IMG/VR virus record: IMGVR_UViG_3300025908_000008 | Coordinates: 1 to 26,155 of that record | Direction: 5' to 3' (one strand) | Length of the DNA stretch: 26,155 nt | Source: a virus | Part shown: one piece after another, positions 8,644 through 26,155 of the stretch | Layout: each line of letters opens with the position of its first letter | How positions within the stretch are numbered: position 1 is the stretch's first letter | The notes under the pieces: model-generated | Told to the model about the DNA's origin: nothing | The model's input: the letters and a program-made list of their open reading frames with translations, nothing else | Databases searched by the model: none | Position numbers and translations under genes: made by a program

Positions 8644-10056
8644 ATGAACGTTTCCGACAACATTGCGCGCCTGGCTGCGAAACAGGCGGCCGACTATGCG
8701 ACGCTCGAGGGCCTGGTGGCCCAGCTCGACAAGGACACTGGTAACGCGACGATCAAGGGCCAGGTGGACCAACTAACCGTCCAGCTCGAGAAGGACGCCG
8801 GCGCGCTGGCGTCATTCCAGGCGATCGAAAAAGCCCAGGCGCGGCTCGCGCTGCCGATCGCGCCGGCGATCGTGGCGCCCAAGCGCGGCGAGGCGAAAGC
8901 GACGCATATCTGGCGCGCCGCCGTCGTGATGTTCGACTCGTATCATTCGCGGCGATCGATCGACGAAGTTTTGAAAGAGCGTTACGGCGACGACGAAGTG
9001 ACCCGCGACGTTTGCACGCTCGCGCTCAATCATTCGACGCCAGGCCGCGGCCATGACGTGCTGCAAATGATGCTGATACAGCGCGCCGCCCAGGGGCCGG
9101 CAACAACCTTTACGCCAGGCTATGCGCAAGAGCTGGTGCACCAAACATACGCGGCGTTCCTCGATGAGCTCCGCGGCGTGTCGGCCGTCGCCCGCGTGAA
9201 TTTCGTTTCCGACTCCTTCGCGAACGGCGCGCCGATCGTTGTTCCGTATCGCGTCGCAAAAGAACCGTTCCCCGACAATTTCGAGGCCGCGTTCCGTCGC
9301 GAGGGCGACCCGATTCGCGTGGGCCGGCTGCGCACTGGCGCCAAAACGCTCTATCCCTATTCCATGGGCGTGATCGGCACGTTTACGCGTGAGCTGTTGC
9401 GCCGCTCGACGCCGTCGATCGAAACCATGATTCGCCAGGCTATGCTCGATGACACGGCGAGCATTATCGACGCGCTGGTGTTCGGCAACGGCGCCGCCGT
9501 CGCCGGCCTGCGGCCCGCCGGCCTGACCAACGGAATCGATCCGACCGACACGCACGCGGCGACGGCGACGCCGACGATTGCCGATATCGACGCCGACCTT
9601 AACAAGCTGGTGAAACAGCTAGTCGCGGTTCGCATGATGGGCGGCCCGTCGACGTCGTGGGTTATGAACACGGCGAACGCCGTCACGCTCTCGACCTTGC
9701 AAAACGCGCTGGGCGGATCGGCCTTCCCTGGCACGACGGCCCAGGGCGGAACGCTCAAGGGCTATCCGGTGGCCGCGTCGCCGTATTTCGCGCTCGACCG
9801 CGTGTTGCTGGTCGACGGCGCCGGCGTCTTTATGGCCGGCGGCACGCCGGAGTTTGAAATGTCGACTCAGGCAACCTTGCATGAGGAAAACACGGCGCCG
9901 TTGCCGATCGGCTCCGCCGGAGCTCCGGCGACCGTCGCGGCGCCGGCGCGCTCGCTGTTCCAAACCAACAGCGCGGCGCTGCGCATGATCGAAGAAATAT
10001 CCTGGGATGAGCTGCGGACCGGAGCGGTTCAAGAGCTGACTGGCGTAGCCTGGTAG
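8644..10056 (+). CDS. Major capsid protein, HK97 fold
   Basis: 470 residues. The first about 85 residues form a coiled-coil scaffold (delta) domain (LAAKQAADYATLEGLVAQLDKDTGN, KGQVDQLTVQLEKDAGALASFQAIEKAQARLAL), which the neighbouring protease is expected to remove. The rest matches HK97-type coats: GPATTFTPGYAQELVHQ at the N-arm, RVNFVSDSFANGAPIVVPYRV, SMGVIGTFTRELLRRS, DALVFGNGAAVAGLRPAGL, WVMNTANAVTLSTLQ and GGTLKGYPVAASPYF, ending in a beta-rich P-domain segment. Order protease then capsid is normal; the portal, however, comes after it instead of before. Confidence 0.9.
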   Translation: MNVSDNIARLAAKQAADYATLEGLVAQLDKDTGNATIKGQVDQLTVQLEKDAGALASFQAIEKAQARLALPIAPAIVAPKRGEAKATHIWRAAVVMFDSYHSRRSIDEVLKERYGDDEVTRDVCTLALNHSTPGRGHDVLQMMLIQRAAQGPATTFTPGYAQELVHQTYAAFLDELRGVSAVARVNFVSDSFANGAPIVVPYRVAKEPFPDNFEAAFRREGDPIRVGRLRTGAKTLYPYSMGVIGTFTRELLRRSTPSIETMIRQAMLDDTASIIDALVFGNGAAVAGLRPAGLTNGIDPTDTHAATATPTIADIDADLNKLVKQLVAVRMMGGPSTSWVMNTANAVTLSTLQNALGGSAFPGTTAQGGTLKGYPVAASPYFALDRVLLVDGAGVFMAGGTPEFEMSTQATLHEENTAPLPIGSAGAPATVAAPARSLFQTNSAALRMIEEISWDELRTGAVQELTGVAW

Positions 10057-18874: not shown

Positions 18875-21114
18875 TCTTTCGGCAAAACCCGCTCTCGACG
18901 CGCGACGATATCGTGGCGGCGCTCGAGCCTGGCGCCGTGCCGTTTGACTGGCTGGCCGAACATTATCCGAACGGCTGCGGCCGCAAGGTTTGGCACTATC
19001 ACAATGCCGAGCTGATCGACGCCGACTCGCCTGACTACCTCGAGCGGCCGGTGCAAGCCGGCGACGTCGTGCATCTGGTGACGTTCCCAGGCGAGCCAAT
19101 TTCGATAACCACGATTCTCGTTACGGCGCTGGTGACGGCCGCCGTATCCGCCGCGGTATCTATCGGCCTGTCGCTGTTGTTCCCCAAACCAACCGCGCCA
19201 AGTGCGGCGACGCCAGGGGGCAGCAATCCGGCAAACCCCGCTTACAACGTGCGCTCGAGGCAAAACATTGCGCGCCTGGGCGAGCCGGTGCCGGCGATCT
19301 ATGGCCGCGTGATCGCGACGCCGGATCTTTGCGCGTCGCCCTATGCCATGTATGAGGCCGGAACGCGCGGTATGTGGGTCGACTTGCTCATGTGCCTGGG
19401 CCATGGCGATTTCGACGTCCATCAAGTGTTCGTAGGCGAGAGCGAGGCCGACCAAATCGAAGGCGGCGCCGCGCGCTGGATTGTTGTTCCGCCGTCCGTG
19501 CACGGCGGCGGCTTTGGCTCGCTAATGGGCATCGCCCAGGCGGCCGGCTGGGAACAAGGTTTCATCGAAAACGCCTACGTATCGCAAGAGATAGGCGAGC
19601 AACGGTTCACCGACCAAGGCGACGCGAGCGGCTTTTATCGCCTGGGCCGCGCCGGCGTGGTCATGGGTAGCCAGCTCTGGATTTTGCTCGAGTGGCCGCG
19701 CGGCCTCTATCAAATGCCGGACTGGGGCCAGCCGATCGGCACGTGGGTTGACTGGGACGTTTACGTTGATGAGGCCGACGCCGACGGCCGGCCGGTGCCT
19801 GGCACGCGCCAGGAATTCAATTTTAGTTTCAACGCTGCCGTGATCGACCCTGTCCGGCGAATGGACGCGATCTATTTAGGCCGCAACGCCGCCTGGCTGG
19901 TGAAAATCTATCGCCGCACGGTGAAGGAACCGAACGGCGACGAGCAAAACGAATTTTTTTGGCGCGCCTGTTTCCTGGCGTGCGCCCATCCGCCTGGCGT
20001 GGCCTACGGCAACACGACTCTGTTGATGGTGCGCCTATTTGCCGAGCAAGTGGCCTCGAGCGCCGATCGCCTGGTGCGCGTGGAGCTCACGCGGCGCCTG
20101 CCGCATGTCGACGGATCCGGCGACGCGCCGTCGACGTCGCCGGCCGACGCGTTTGCCGACGTCTATTGCAACGGCGTCTATGGCGGCCGCCGGCCGCGCG
20201 CCGAGCTCGACCAGGTGCGACTCAATCAACTGGGCGCCTACTGGGGCGGCTATCAATTCAACGCCGTTTATACCCAGCGCACGACGGTATGGGAGGCGCT
20301 CACGCAAACCGTGCAAGGCGTCGCGGCGGCGCCGCTGCCGGTGGCCGGCGCCATGTCGATCGTGCAAGACGGCGTGCGGCCGGTCCGCTCAATGCTGTTT
20401 ACGGAACAGAACATTGTTAAGAGCTCGTTTCAGCTCGCCTACCATTTCGAGCCGACCGGCGCGCCGGACGGAATCGAAATCGAATACGTCGACCCCAACA
20501 CATGGTCGCCGGCTTATGTGCGCTATCCGGCCTCGAGCCTGTCGCCCGATCGGATCAACCTGTTTGGCTGTTCGGATCCGGTGCAAGCGGCCCAGGTGGC
20601 GCGCCTGCAATGGCAGCGCCGGCAATTGCTGCGGCGCCTGGTGACGTTTGAAACCGAGCTCGAGGGCCTCATACCGAATCCAGGCGAGCGCATTGCCGTT
20701 GCCCATACGCTGCCGCGCTGGGGCGTGTCCGGCCTGGTGAAATCCGTTGCCTTCGATGGCGTCAATATCGACCTAGACCGCGCGTTGCCGTGGGATGAGG
20801 TAGCGCCGCCCTGGTACATGATGTTTCGCGATCAATGGAGCGGCGCCAGCGCGATCGTGCAAGCGACGCCAGGCGCCGGCGCAAACCAGGCCACGCTCTC
20901 GAGCTCGCCCTGGGGGCCAGGCCAAGGCTGGCAACTGGGCAACACGCAAGAGCGCACGCATTTTGCCTGGGGCGATGGCTCGCGCGTGATTAAGGATTTC
21001 ACGCTGACGGCGTTGTCGCCCAAGGGCGGAAAAACGGTGGGCGTTGAAGGCGTGATTTATGAGCCTGGCGTCTATGACCAAACCCTGTATTTCCTCGCCG
21101 GAGCGGTGCCGTAA
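18853..21114 (+). CDS. Tail tip / host-specificity protein, gpJ-like
   Basis: ATG 18853 has CAGGGGGTCAA upstream and overlaps the hydrolase gene by 22 bp. The 753-residue product has an N-terminal beta-grasp, gpI-like region (residues 1-80, ending AGDVVHLVTFPGEPI), a hydrophobic Ala/Val helix (ITTILVTALVTAAVSAAVSIG), then NPANPAYNVRSRQNIARLGEPVPAIYGRVI, the classical tail-tip J start. The middle carries DGDFDVHQVFVGES-type tip folds (LCLGHGDFDVHQVFVGESEA) and the C terminus ends in beta-rich domains. This protein forms the tail tip below the tape measure and usually sets host range. It appears to fuse gpI- and gpJ-type parts. Confidence 0.85.
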   Translation: MVPLAALIFRQNPLSTRDDIVAALEPGAVPFDWLAEHYPNGCGRKVWHYHNAELIDADSPDYLERPVQAGDVVHLVTFPGEPISITTILVTALVTAAVSAAVSIGLSLLFPKPTAPSAATPGGSNPANPAYNVRSRQNIARLGEPVPAIYGRVIATPDLCASPYAMYEAGTRGMWVDLLMCLGHGDFDVHQVFVGESEADQIEGGAARWIVVPPSVHGGGFGSLMGIAQAAGWEQGFIENAYVSQEIGEQRFTDQGDASGFYRLGRAGVVMGSQLWILLEWPRGLYQMPDWGQPIGTWVDWDVYVDEADADGRPVPGTRQEFNFSFNAAVIDPVRRMDAIYLGRNAAWLVKIYRRTVKEPNGDEQNEFFWRACFLACAHPPGVAYGNTTLLMVRLFAEQVASSADRLVRVELTRRLPHVDGSGDAPSTSPADAFADVYCNGVYGGRRPRAELDQVRLNQLGAYWGGYQFNAVYTQRTTVWEALTQTVQGVAAAPLPVAGAMSIVQDGVRPVRSMLFTEQNIVKSSFQLAYHFEPTGAPDGIEIEYVDPNTWSPAYVRYPASSLSPDRINLFGCSDPVQAAQVARLQWQRRQLLRRLVTFETELEGLIPNPGERIAVAHTLPRWGVSGLVKSVAFDGVNIDLDRALPWDEVAPPWYMMFRDQWSGASAIVQATPGAGANQATLSSSPWGPGQGWQLGNTQERTHFAWGDGSRVIKDFTLTALSPKGGKTVGVEGVIYEPGVYDQTLYFLAGAVP

Positions 21115-22989: not shown

Positions 22990-23195
22990 GCTCGAGCGCC
23001 TGGCGCCTGTCGATCGGCGCCGTCGCCCTGGCGCTGGCGGCGTGCGGTGGCCGTGACCAGCCCGTGACCCTGGCGCCGCAATTCCGCTGCGAGGGCCTGG
23101 TGGTGCGCTGCCACGTGATCGCCTGGACTGTTGGCGCGGCCTGGGCCGCGCGGCTCGAGGGAACGCATATCCGGTGCACGTGCGCCAACGCCTAG
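22986..23195 (+). CDS. Small cysteine-rich lipoprotein
   Basis: ATG 22986 overlaps the fibre stop. 69 residues: signal peptide MSSSAWRLSIGAVALALAAC with lipobox LAAC (Cys20), then a mature part of about 50 residues with four more cysteines (FRCEGLVVRCHVIAW, IRCTCANA). Likely an outer-membrane lipoprotein. It could be the outer spanin of a lysis module or an infection-blocking lipoprotein, but no lysis partner is next to it. It ends the tail operon. Confidence 0.6.
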   Translation: MSSSAWRLSIGAVALALAACGGRDQPVTLAPQFRCEGLVVRCHVIAWTVGAAWAARLEGTHIRCTCANA

Positions 23196-23413
23196 CCGTT
23201 CCGACTCCCGACACGGCCCTATCCGTTGTGGTTAGGCCGAACGCGGTAACACAATCGAGAGCGGCGTTTTACCTGCCGGACCTAGGGCATTGCCTGACGC
23301 GTCAAGCCAACAAAAACGCCTAACCCATTGATCGTAAAGGCGCCTTGACGTCGTGTTCGCAATGTGGACATGATCGTTACAATTATCAGTCCCCTTAGCG
23401 TCCGAAAATTCCA
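23196..23413. promoter_or_regulatory. Early control region upstream of the Cro-like gene
   Basis: This 218-base gap is the longest in the window and AT-richer than its surroundings. It holds operator site 3 (23333-23350), a TGACGCGTCA palindrome at 23295-23304 whose half (GTCAAG, in everted orientation) resembles the operator, and TACAAT at 23378-23383, a good -10 by itself. I found no -35 at 17 nt from it. No convincing terminator ends the tail operon here. Confidence 0.5.
23333..23350. promoter_or_regulatory. Operator candidate, site 3
   Basis: CGTAAAGGCGCCTTGACG matches the 18-bp core with one change (C to A at the fourth position). It lies 64 nt ahead of the Cro-like gene, and its right half provides TTGACG, a possible -35. 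The position suits autoregulation. Confidence 0.6.
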
Positions 23414-23686
23414 ATGAAACGCGCCCGCAAGACGAAGGGCGATGGCGCGGCCCGCTCGAGCCGCACGCGCCCGAAGGCGAAAAAGCCCAGGCGATCGGCC
23501 AGGCTCCGCAAGGTGCTTGCCCTGTTCCCGCAACCCGAGCTCGCGCGGATCTGTGGCGTCAAACGCCAGGCCGTCCAGCAATGGGCCGACCTACCGCCGC
23601 AACACGCGCTCGCCGTCGAAAAGGCGAGCGGCGGCGAGCTCACGAAAGAGTTTCTAGCGCCAAATTTTTACCCGCGGCCGGCATGA
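23414..23686 (+). CDS. Cro/YdaS-like helix-turn-helix regulator
   Basis: 90 residues. The first 35 are very basic and probably flexible (MKRARKTKGDGAARSSRTRP, KKPRRSARLRK). From residue 36 the fold reads LALFPQPELARICGVKRQAVQQWADLPPQHALAVEKASGGEL: a helix-turn-helix (about 41-57) followed by a helix, as in Cro and YdaS-type proteins, where LARICGVKRQAVQQW is the recognition part and LPPQHALAVEKASGG the dimer side. Such proteins control the early promoters of temperate phages. The gene lies just after operator site 3, so it is the best candidate reader of the palindromes. The long basic N-terminal extension is unusual. Confidence 0.75.
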   Translation: MKRARKTKGDGAARSSRTRPKAKKPRRSARLRKVLALFPQPELARICGVKRQAVQQWADLPPQHALAVEKASGGELTKEFLAPNFYPRPA

Positions 23687-24075
23687 GCGCACACGCCGGC
23701 CCAGCGAGAGAGGCGCCGCGGCCCGCCGGCGATCGGCCTGGCGCGATCGTGGCGCCGGTGGCCTGGCCGGAGCTCGCCCACGAGCTAGTCACGCAACGCG
23801 GCCGCGCGCGCCGTTTGGAGCTGGTGCCGCTGGCTCACGAGTTGCGCGAAGCGATCGCCTGGCGCGTTCGCAATCTCACGCCGCTGGTGGCGTCGCCGGC
23901 CTACGCGCCGTTGTGGCTCCAGGGCGGCGCCGATCGGCGCCGGCTCATGCTGGCCGCCGTTTTCGAGTCCGGCGATTTTCATTACGGCGCGAGCAATCGC
24001 GAGCGCCGGCAAACCCTGGCGCGCTGGATCCACGCGCGCCTAAGCGCGGCTCCGGCTCCGGAGCCGAGCGCATGA
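23683..24075 (+). CDS. Hypothetical early protein
   Basis: ATG 23683 overlaps the Cro-like stop. The 130-residue product has a Pro/Ala-rich start and a helical middle (WPELAHELVTQRGRARRLELVPLAHELREAIAWRVRNL), then WLQGGADRRRLMLAAVFESGDFHYGASNRERRQTLARWI. No family recognised. In lambda-like early operons a CII-type or replication-accessory gene would stand here, but nothing in the sequence shows such a function. It is followed by a terminator. Confidence 0.6.
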   Translation: MSAHAGPAREAPRPAGDRPGAIVAPVAWPELAHELVTQRGRARRLELVPLAHELREAIAWRVRNLTPLVASPAYAPLWLQGGADRRRLMLAAVFESGDFHYGASNRERRQTLARWIHARLSAAPAPEPSA

Positions 24076-24092
24076 CGTGAAGTGAATTTTGC

Positions 24093-24125
24093 GAGGGGCC
24101 GGAAAGGCGGCCGGCCTCTCGTTTT
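24093..24125 (+). terminator. Rho-independent terminator in the early operon
   Basis: GAGGGGCCGG (24093-24102) pairs with CCGGCCTCTC (24111-24120), ten pairs with one G-T, 8-nt loop, then GTTTTG. It separates the Cro-like operon from the initiator gene and may be read through under antitermination or partly terminating. Confidence 0.75.
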
Positions 24126-24189
24126 GTGTGGCGTGCGACGTTGACGCGAAGCACGACCCGAGAAACCGGCCGCCAGGGACCGACGAACA

Positions 24190-25080
24190 ATGTTGAACGC
24201 AGAGCGTAGGAATATCAAGGCCACGACAAGGCGCCTTGACGATGACACAAAAGGGCCAGGGAACGCCGCGCGGCGCTGGATTCAATCGATAGGCAACCTA
24301 TCGCGAACCGAGCGCGACGTGGGCCTGGCGTTCGCCTGGTACGCCGATAACGACGGTTTCGCCTGGCCTAGCCGCTATTCCCTGGCCGTCCGATCGCGTT
24401 TGAGTGTTCGGACCGTCCAGCGCGCGCTCGAGGGCCTGGTGGCGCGTGGCGTGCTGATCGAGGCCGGATCCAAAGTGACCCGCGACAAGCGCGACGGTCG
24501 ACCCCTCACCCGGACGCGGCTCTATCGCCTGGCGCTCTCCGATCGGCTCGAGCCCGTATTGCCGGCGACCGAACGCCGGCGCCTGGCGCGCGAGCTCGCC
24601 GGCGAAAGTGCCAATTTGGCACTCTCGATAGGGGCCGAAACCCGTCCTATCGAGAGTGCCAAAACAGGGCCGCAAACGGGGCCGGAAACGGTCGATCGAA
24701 AGTGCCAAATTGGCACTCTCGAGGCCGATCGAGAGTGCCAAATTGGCACACAATCCTTAGTAACAACCCAGGCAATGGTCGACGGCGCCGGCGAGGGCGC
24801 GCCCCTCACGCCAGCGCCGGCGCCGCCGACGGCCGGCACAACAACCGTTCAAATTGTTGCCGCGCGAGGCGCCGGCATGACGGCGATAGCGGCCGGCAAC
24901 GTCGTGGAGCTCACGACGGCCCAACAGCTCGCGACCGTGGCGCGCCGCAAGGCCGCGTTGGCGCGCAAACCGGCCGGCGGCCGCTGGTGGGACGTGCTGC
25001 CGGTGGAGCTCACGACGGCGGCCGATCGACCGAATCGCCTGGGCGATCGCAAAGACTGGCGGCGAGGGCCGAAGGCATGA
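24190..25080 (+). CDS. Replication initiator, HTH_36-type, lambda-O-like architecture
   Basis: ATG 24190 with AGGGA about 10 nt upstream; 296 residues. Residues 28-90 form a winged-helix domain, GNLSRTERDVGLAFAWYADNDG, then FAWPSRYSLAVRSRLSVRTVQRALEGLVARGVLIEAGSK: the pattern of HTH_36 proteins that act as phage replication initiators. The middle (codons about 138-188) is encoded by the iteron cluster, a spacer with little structure. The C terminus (about 215-296) ends in GGRWWDVLPVELTTAADRP and a basic tail and should contact the host replication machinery. Site 4 of the operator set lies over codons 12-18, suggesting repression of the initiator. Stop overlaps the HNH start. Confidence 0.75.
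   Translation: MLNAERRNIKATTRRLDDDTKGPGNAARRWIQSIGNLSRTERDVGLAFAWYADNDGFAWPSRYSLAVRSRLSVRTVQRALEGLVARGVLIEAGSKVTRDKRDGRPLTRTRLYRLALSDRLEPVLPATERRRLARELAGESANLALSIGAETRPIESAKTGPQTGPETVDRKCQIGTLEADRECQIGTQSLVTTQAMVDGAGEGAPLTPAPAPPTAGTTTVQIVAARGAGMTAIAAGNVVELTTAQQLATVARRKAALARKPAGGRWWDVLPVELTTAADRPNRLGDRKDWRRGPKA
24224..24241. promoter_or_regulatory. Operator candidate, site 4
   Basis: CGACAAGGCGCCTTGACG matches the 18-bp core with one change (T to A at position 3). It is inside the first codons of the initiator frame when ATG 24190 is used, so binding there would act as a roadblock to transcription. Confidence 0.6.
24603..24760. repeat. Iteron cluster, candidate replication origin inside the initiator gene
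   Basis: Four copies of a repeat based on AGTGCCAA-N-TTGGCACT: copy 1 at 24607-24623, copy 2 as a half-site plus flank at 24648-24662, copy 3 at 24701-24717, copy 4 at 24734-24750 with its last base changed. Flanks extend the match (TATCGAGAGTGCCAA and its reverse complement). Centres are spaced 48, 46 and 33 nt. Copies 1 and 2 are read as SANL and ESAK, copies 3 and 4 as KCQIGT and ECQIGT, in a different frame. The stretch just after (24743-24770) is AT-richer, like a melting region. Confidence 0.8.
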
Positions 25081-25511
25081 GGCTAACCAAGACGAAGAGT
25101 CGAAAAACCGGCGACCCGTTCCTGGCGTCGAAAGCCTGGCGGATCCTGCGGGCGCGCCATTTGAAGCGGCATCCGCATTGCGCCTGGTGCCCAGCTCGAG
25201 GGCCTCGAGGCATGACCGTTGACCATATCGAGCCGCGCTCGAGGCGGCCGGAGCTCGCCCTGGATCCTGCCAACCTGCAAACGCTGTGCGGCACGTGCCA
25301 CGGCCAGGCGAAGCAAGCCCACGAGCTGGCCGCCGGTGACGTCATGGCCGGCGGCTCGAGCTCGAGCGGCTGGCCTGTCGACCCTGGCCATCCGTGGAAT
25401 CTGGCCGCCAGCGCGCCCGCGGCCGCTCGCCTGGCTCCGCCCAGGCCGTCTAACGACCCGAGAGGGCGGCCCGCGCCCCAAATCGCCCCAGGGGCCAAAA
25501 ACCGGCCCTAG
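25077..25511 (+). CDS. HNH endonuclease
   Basis: ATG 25077 overlaps the initiator stop. The 144-residue product has a complete HNH site: CAWC (Cys35, Cys38), TVDHIEPRSRRPELALDPANLQTLCGTCH with His50 in DHI, Asn66 in ANLQ, and Cys71/Cys74/His75. A Pro/Gly-rich disordered tail follows (GGSSSSGWPVDPG). HNH proteins in phages cut DNA, often at cos sites near terS; here the gene adjoins the initiator, so a role in replication or as a homing-type nuclease is equally possible. Confidence 0.85.
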   Translation: MRLTKTKSRKTGDPFLASKAWRILRARHLKRHPHCAWCPARGPRGMTVDHIEPRSRRPELALDPANLQTLCGTCHGQAKQAHELAAGDVMAGGSSSSGWPVDPGHPWNLAASAPAAARLAPPRPSNDPRGRPAPQIAPGAKNRP

Positions 25512-25544: not shown

Positions 25545-26155
25545 ATGGATATTTCCCGCCTAAACGCCCGAATCCGGCATATCCCAGTGCCGGAGCACAT
25601 GCAGCGCCGGCCGATCACGCGCCGCGGCTTTCCGGTGCCGTTTTTCGTGGCCTGGCTCTCGCCCATGGGCGCCGACATGCCGGACGGCATGGGCGAGCCT
25701 GATTTCCGCGTGGTCGACGGCAAAAAGCTGGCGGCCTGCCGCAAGCTGGGCCTGTGCTGGCTATGCGGCAAACCGCTGGGCAAGTTCCGCGCGCTGGTGG
25801 TTGGCCCCATGTGCCTTGTGACCAGGCGCACGCCGGATCCGGACTCCCACACGGCGTGCGCCGAGTATGCCGCGCGCGCCTGTCCATTCCTGGCCAACGA
25901 TCGGACCAGGCGCAACGAAGCGGTGCCGCTGCCGGAGGGAGCGCAAGCCCATCCGATGGGCGCGAAGCGAAATCCTGGCGTCTGTTGCGTGTTCGTGCAT
26001 ACCGAGCGGTGGCTAAAGCTGGCGCCGCAACCCATGGGCCTACCGCCGCTGTTTCAAATGCCGAGCGGCGAGCCGCGCCGGCTCACGTTCTGGGCCAATG
26101 GCGAGCGCGCAACCCGTCGCCAGGTGATGGACTCGCTTAACGGCGGCCTCGAGAT
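25545..26155 (+). CDS. Cys-rich phage protein, 3'-truncated by window edge
   Basis: ATG 25545 after ACAACGGAGAATTGCGCCA; open to the window end, 203 codons visible. The sequence reads IRHIPVPEHMQRRPITRRGFPVPFFVAWLSP, EPDFRVVDGKKLAACRKLGLCWLCGKPLGKF, VGPMCLVTRRTPDPDSHTACAEYAARACPFL: a Cys-rich family (C71, C74, C90, C105, C113 and others) seen in many proteobacterial phage genomes, probably zinc binding. I know of no defined function. Same strand and direction as the HNH gene, so part of the early operon. Confidence 0.7.
   Translation, partial: MDISRLNARIRHIPVPEHMQRRPITRRGFPVPFFVAWLSPMGADMPDGMGEPDFRVVDGKKLAACRKLGLCWLCGKPLGKFRALVVGPMCLVTRRTPDPDSHTACAEYAARACPFLANDRTRRNEAVPLPEGAQAHPMGAKRNPGVCCVFVHTERWLKLAPQPMGLPPLFQMPSGEPRRLTFWANGERATRRQVMDSLNGGLE

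Follow-up and report, generated by a model that had tools for sequence, protein, structure and literature searches.

Gene neighborhood and domain architecture of the initiator

Toward its end the window, the whole 26,155-bp stretch of viral DNA analyzed here, carries a Cro/YdaS-like regulator gene, a small gene, an initiator gene and an HNH endonuclease gene whose start overlaps the initiator stop via an ATGA (Table 1). The gene after the HNH gene, with which the record ends, has no family match in Pfam or PHROGs; it is a cysteine-rich ORF (25545-26153) that runs off the contig end. No helicase loader or helicase gene occurs directly downstream of the initiator in the record, which ends about 1 kb past it, and no partition genes were recovered with Pfam and PHROGs among the scanned neighbors. 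The stretch from the tail-fiber-like gene to the HNH gene measures about 2.1 kb in the window (22990-25076) versus about 6.8 kb in a sister contig (G004), and the early region is therefore very compact.

Table 1. Genes, domains and repeat sites in the initiator region of the window
Feature	Position	Strand	Description
Cro/YdaS-like regulator, second gene before the initiator	23414..23686	+	Pfam YdaS_toxin E 4.3e-10, P22_Cro E 3.8e-6; PHROG transcriptional repressor
Small gene flanked by Cro-like gene and initiator	23683..24075	+	Function unassigned; 46% conserved in sister contig G006
Initiator gene, 296 aa	24190..25080	+	HTH_36 / PHROG "replication initiation, O-like" (Pfam PF13730, PHROGs)
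N-terminal winged-helix DNA-binding domain (predicted), residues about 22-115	24253..24534	+	AlphaFold2 pLDDT mostly 80-97, Pfam
Iteron 1	24607..24623		AGTGCCAATTTGGCACT, perfect dyad, reading frame 0
Half-site	24655..24662	+	AGTGCCAA, frame 0
Iteron 2 (copy 3 of the sequence-only reading)	24701..24717		AGTGCCAAATTGGCACT, perfect dyad, frame 1
Iteron 3 (copy 4 of the sequence-only reading)	24734..24750		AGTGCCAAATTGGCACA, 1 mismatch, frame 1
AT-rich 40 bp, candidate unwinding element	24740..24779		57% AT; AT peak of lambda and most relatives at the same position
HNH endonuclease	25077..25511	+	PF01844 E 2.1e-9, phrog_2323 E 3.8e-21

HTH_36 (E 2.9e-7, residues 36-87) is the sole Pfam match of the initiator at E<0.1, and the Phage_rep_O domain (PF04492) was not found in it. 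The protein matches nine PHROG families, all of them replication initiation, of which phrog_1032 is the best (E 8.4e-11), followed by the O-like phrog_391 and phrog_678, with phrog_270 also among the matches. An AlphaFold2 model, built on a 12-sequence alignment, predicts the fold order helix-helix-helix-strand-strand for the winged helix and behind it a less confident helix up to about residue 144. Most of the residues coded by the repeats are modeled as disordered, with one short helix at 243-258. On comparison of the model with solved structures, many of the top matches were MarR-like and other transcription factors. The C-terminal host-contact domain proposed in an initial sequence-only reading of this DNA did not hold up: the C-terminal part has no Pfam match, and a folded domain there is not supported by the model.

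Dyad repeats within the initiator gene

The sequence-only reading had counted four copies of a dyad within the HTH_36 ORF. The repeat cluster is real and comprises three full dyads of a 17-bp unit, AGTGCCAA-W-TTGGCAC(T/A), with zero, zero and one mismatches to AGTGCCAA-N-TTGGCACT; the remaining copy, AGTGCCAAAACAGGGCC at 24655, is a half-site with six mismatches versus the full dyad. To the left of this half-site lies CCTATCGAG, which forms an 18-nt exact inverted repeat with the flank on the right of iteron 1. With the half-site included, the sites follow each other in steps of 48, 46 and 33 bp. Measured between centers, the full dyads are separated by 94 and 33 bp (8.95 and 3.14 helical turns), a suggestive phasing from too few sites for a claim. 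No further full dyad with up to three mismatches occurs in the 26,155-bp record outside the initiator gene; the chance expectation for the dyad in the whole record is 0.06, and none of 100 shuffles reaches three. On the plus strand of the record AGTGCCAA is confined to these four sites, and TTGGCACT is found at two of the four and additionally at 18990. A 14-mer repeat statistic gives seven "copies" in the window, one of which, at gene position 278 with three mismatches, is probably due to chance.

The change of reading frame noticed at the outset stands: the sites at 24607 and 24655 are translated as SANLA and SAK in frame 0, and those at 24701 and 24734 as CQIGT each in frame 1. When the codons were shuffled synonymously with the protein kept exactly, none of 1000 trials yielded three dyads each within one mismatch of the unit. 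Therefore, it is the DNA words that are kept and not the peptide, and the window dyads are, as had been argued, not explained by protein selection. The AT-richer stretch reported beside the repeats is likewise real and modest: the 40-bp segment stands at the 99.2nd AT percentile of the record and takes in half of iteron 3.

The 3' part of the initiator gene contains a separate exact 17-nt direct repeat, GTGGAGCTCACGACGGC, at 24904-24920 and 25003-25019. Its copies share one frame (VELTTA) and may reflect a codon habit, GAGCTC being common in the record (70 times).

In-gene arrays in other phage initiators

No close relatives of the whole initiator were found in IMG/VR, and its N-terminal part recovered nothing from the GTDB genomes beyond one weak relative (L002). 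Contigs with a TerL 75-86% identical to that of the window do exist; among 49 TerL-related records the initiator N-terminus has a single match (G049, 43% over 71 residues), and the window dyad occurs in 0 of the 49. The G049 relative contains a seven-place array of a different unit and is followed by genes reading like DnaC and DnaB. In two sister phages (TerL 83-86% identical) the slot before the HNH gene is occupied by a different gene, coding, as judged from the sequences, for a DUF1376-like protein in G004 and for another winged-helix-like protein in G006 (L253); hence, the initiator module has been exchanged. The G006 gene contains two exact GGGCCTCACAGGCCCA copies (about 9011-9047), 21 bp apart with AT-rich DNA after them; both lie in one frame, and a peptide repeat is possible.

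We compared the repeat unit and its spacing across related initiators with a repeat-family statistic computed per gene against 40 synonymous shuffles, a gene passing if it was matched by at most one of them. Among 22 named-phage relatives, collected by tblastn with four proteins (three of which had originally been found via their own arrays), ranked purely on protein similarity and partly non-independent in that five Pseudomonas entries are close to one another, an in-gene array is significant in 19, with 17 matched by no shuffle and two by one. By this statistic SI8, V039C and DelaGarza are negative; in these the array may be absent or its repeats may have diverged. For lambda O, the positive control, the statistic returns exactly the four annotated iterons, and all 36 control genes, taken from the window and these same loci, fail it. 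The relatives' arrays lie mostly directly behind the winged helix, with differing units and mostly in mixed frames; those of VpM-pA2SJ1 and Chenonceau are in a single frame and could be peptide repeats. Immediately 3' of the array, the AT content of lambda and of 14 out of 16 relatives peaks at the 96th percentile of the gene or higher; the window reaches 94 on this measure. The gene annotated directly after the initiator codes in many relatives for a DnaB helicase or for a loader resembling P or DnaC. The lambda layout, with the origin within the initiator gene, is thus widespread among phage initiators of the winged-helix kind, even distantly related ones.

The iteron itself, which the sequence-only reading did not recognize, is new only in detail, its TGCCA-N3-TGGCA core being found in other phage initiator genes as well. 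Scans of IMG/VR with single and with paired dyads recovered, among the matches listed, in-gene arrays of this core in L010/L014/L022 (one sequence), L028, L030, L029, L032, L033 and L041, and further in L083, L091, L095, L110, L128, L136 and L147. All 15 of the array-bearing proteins scanned match PHROG replication families, L110 weakly so. With a winged-helix profile, at least 12 arrays fall within initiator ORFs in 119 loci versus none in 37 loci of a half-site-swapped control pattern, a contrast to be read as an indication and not as a rate, six of the 12 having belonged to the training set of the profile. Seven of these initiators (L014, L028, L029, L083, L091, L128 and L136) resemble that of the window in having the dyad core within the gene at the matching place; the whole proteins are 17-28% identical to it, and the spacing and flanking bases are unlike. 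We tentatively suggest, with the balance leaning somewhat toward doubt, that TGCCA-N3-TGGCA could recur as an iteron among winged-helix initiators of phages, in proteins that are less than 30% identical to that of the window and belong to different PHROGs (O-like, DnaD-like and lambda-O type), with other units in other winged-helix initiators. If so, either a conserved mode of recognition or repeated convergence on one DNA word would be implied, and the core would help in predicting origins from sequence in uncultured phages.

Two of the loci deserve mention in their own right. The lambda-O-type initiator gene at L029:8606-9538 (minus strand) has at least seven TGCC(A/G)-N3-(T/C)GGCA dyads in three frames. 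In L092 (IMGVR_UViG_3300036770_006768), ten TGCCA-N3-TGGCA dyad pairs are dispersed over the whole 13.5-kb locus, each 29 bp from center to center with a GC-rich spacer, and many adjoin sigma-54-like TGGCAC-N5-TTGC sites. There are 20 such sites versus 1.2 expected, a count reached by no shuffle (L081 has three versus 0.6 expected), and the pairs have the look of a regulatory element spread over the genome of a sigma-54-using phage.

A probable replication origin and its parallel in lambda

We consider it highly likely that the segment 24603-24780 is the replication origin of the phage, following the lambda O/ori plan in lying within the gene for its initiator, and that the dyads are very probably docking sites of the initiator protein. 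The sequence-only reading had already invoked this plan, and it finds good support in the O-like families, the array behind the winged helix, the mixed frames, the 3' AT peak and the recurrence in relatives versus controls; it fails for the copy that is a half-site and for the C-terminal domain. Counting against the origin are the small number of sites, a spacing wider and less regular than in lambda, the modest AT peak, the record's lack of a loader or helicase gene and the lack of a close relative of the initiator.

Palindromic operators are common targets of winged-helix proteins, and the dyads could instead be bound by the initiator itself, or by the Cro-like regulator encoded upstream, to regulate transcription of the operon, with replication starting elsewhere. 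The transcription factors among the top structure matches and the nearby regulator gene would fit such a role; the position of the sites, mid-gene and not at the gene start, would not. Moreover, the family carries a replication-initiator annotation, helicase or loader genes adjoin the initiator in many relatives, and arrays of other units occupy this in-gene position in other phages, among them lambda, whose array is the origin. We regard operators as an unlikely explanation, and the operator and origin roles are not mutually exclusive.

It is quite improbable that the array serves partition or incompatibility, or that it is left over from an origin which the phage has abandoned for another mode of replication. 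In favor are the degenerate state of one site in four, the lack of a loader gene downstream and the different gene in the slot of the sister phages, which implies that the module is exchangeable; against this stand two perfect dyads and a third with one mismatch, an intact initiator gene and the absence of partition genes among the scanned neighbors. Very improbable, finally, is selection of the peptide motif SANLA or CQIGT with the DNA similarity merely following: CQIGT does recur at two sites and two relatives have single-frame repeats, but the frame change and the synonymous shuffles largely refute this reading, and the mixed frames of most relatives and the modeled disorder speak against it as well.

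For the origin, we infer by analogy the following course. The N-terminal winged-helix domain, probably as a dimer, would bind each 17-bp palindrome, and several bound copies of the initiator would assemble into a nucleoprotein complex. The AT-richer DNA on the 3' side of the array, either 24740-24779 or DNA beyond it, would then open, and a helicase would be recruited. We propose that the repeat-coded stretch is tolerated as a disordered linker of the initiator, because of which the repeats could be read in two frames. This would place a probable origin together with its initiator in an uncultured phage. The synonymous-shuffle test offers a simple finder of in-gene origins, and initiator/iteron pairs from many phages would make a DNA-recognition code testable.

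A literature search of incomplete coverage found no published report of the window's iteron. In-gene iterons are known from lambda and Stx phages (PMC7466680), and HTH_36 proteins occur in Stx-phage replication regions, in an account that does not mention iterons (PMC8951638). An in-gene origin on the lambda plan was already known, and what is added is an HTH_36 member with wide spacing. Among the closest parallels are initiators of HTH_36 and PHROGs 1032, 391 and 678, such as those from Sphingopyxis VSN-002, Pseudomonas MD8 and phi2, and Aeromonas 4_D05, which share with the window a related protein, the position of the array, mixed frames and the 3' AT peak; they differ in their units (e.g., GCACCCCCGCAG and GGGTGCA) and in a spacing of mostly 17-24 bp versus 33-48 bp.

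In lambda, O dimers bind the iterons to form the O-some, which is then joined by the lambda P-DnaB complex (PMC3985674), and the AT-rich DNA beside the iterons is needed for unwinding (PMC7466680). Lambda O and ori-lambda (NC_001416, iterons 39034-39118) resemble the window in having mid-gene iterons behind an N-terminal DNA-binding domain (PMC7466680), iterons in several frames, a 3' AT-rich stretch and a Cro gene upstream. A strictly lambda-type origin would have at least four full dyads at regular 20-24 bp, as with the four annotated 18-bp iterons of lambda itself (20-24 bp apart), an AT-rich tract directly beside them and, immediately after the initiator, a gene for the loader (P) or a helicase. 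In the window the unit has another sequence and is present as three full dyads plus one half-site at intervals of 33-48 bp; the AT-rich tract is modest and overlaps the last dyad, and an HNH endonuclease stands in the place that gene P takes downstream of O. Lambda O is a PF04492 (Phage_rep_O) protein, whereas the window initiator is HTH_36 in Pfam, with matches to the O-like PHROGs. In the broader O-like sense the two agree: the protein falls in the O-like and replication initiation families, and the in-gene array behind its winged helix is unexplained by the protein. The order of Cro-like gene, small gene and O-like gene in the window likewise recalls the cro-cII-O order of lambda.
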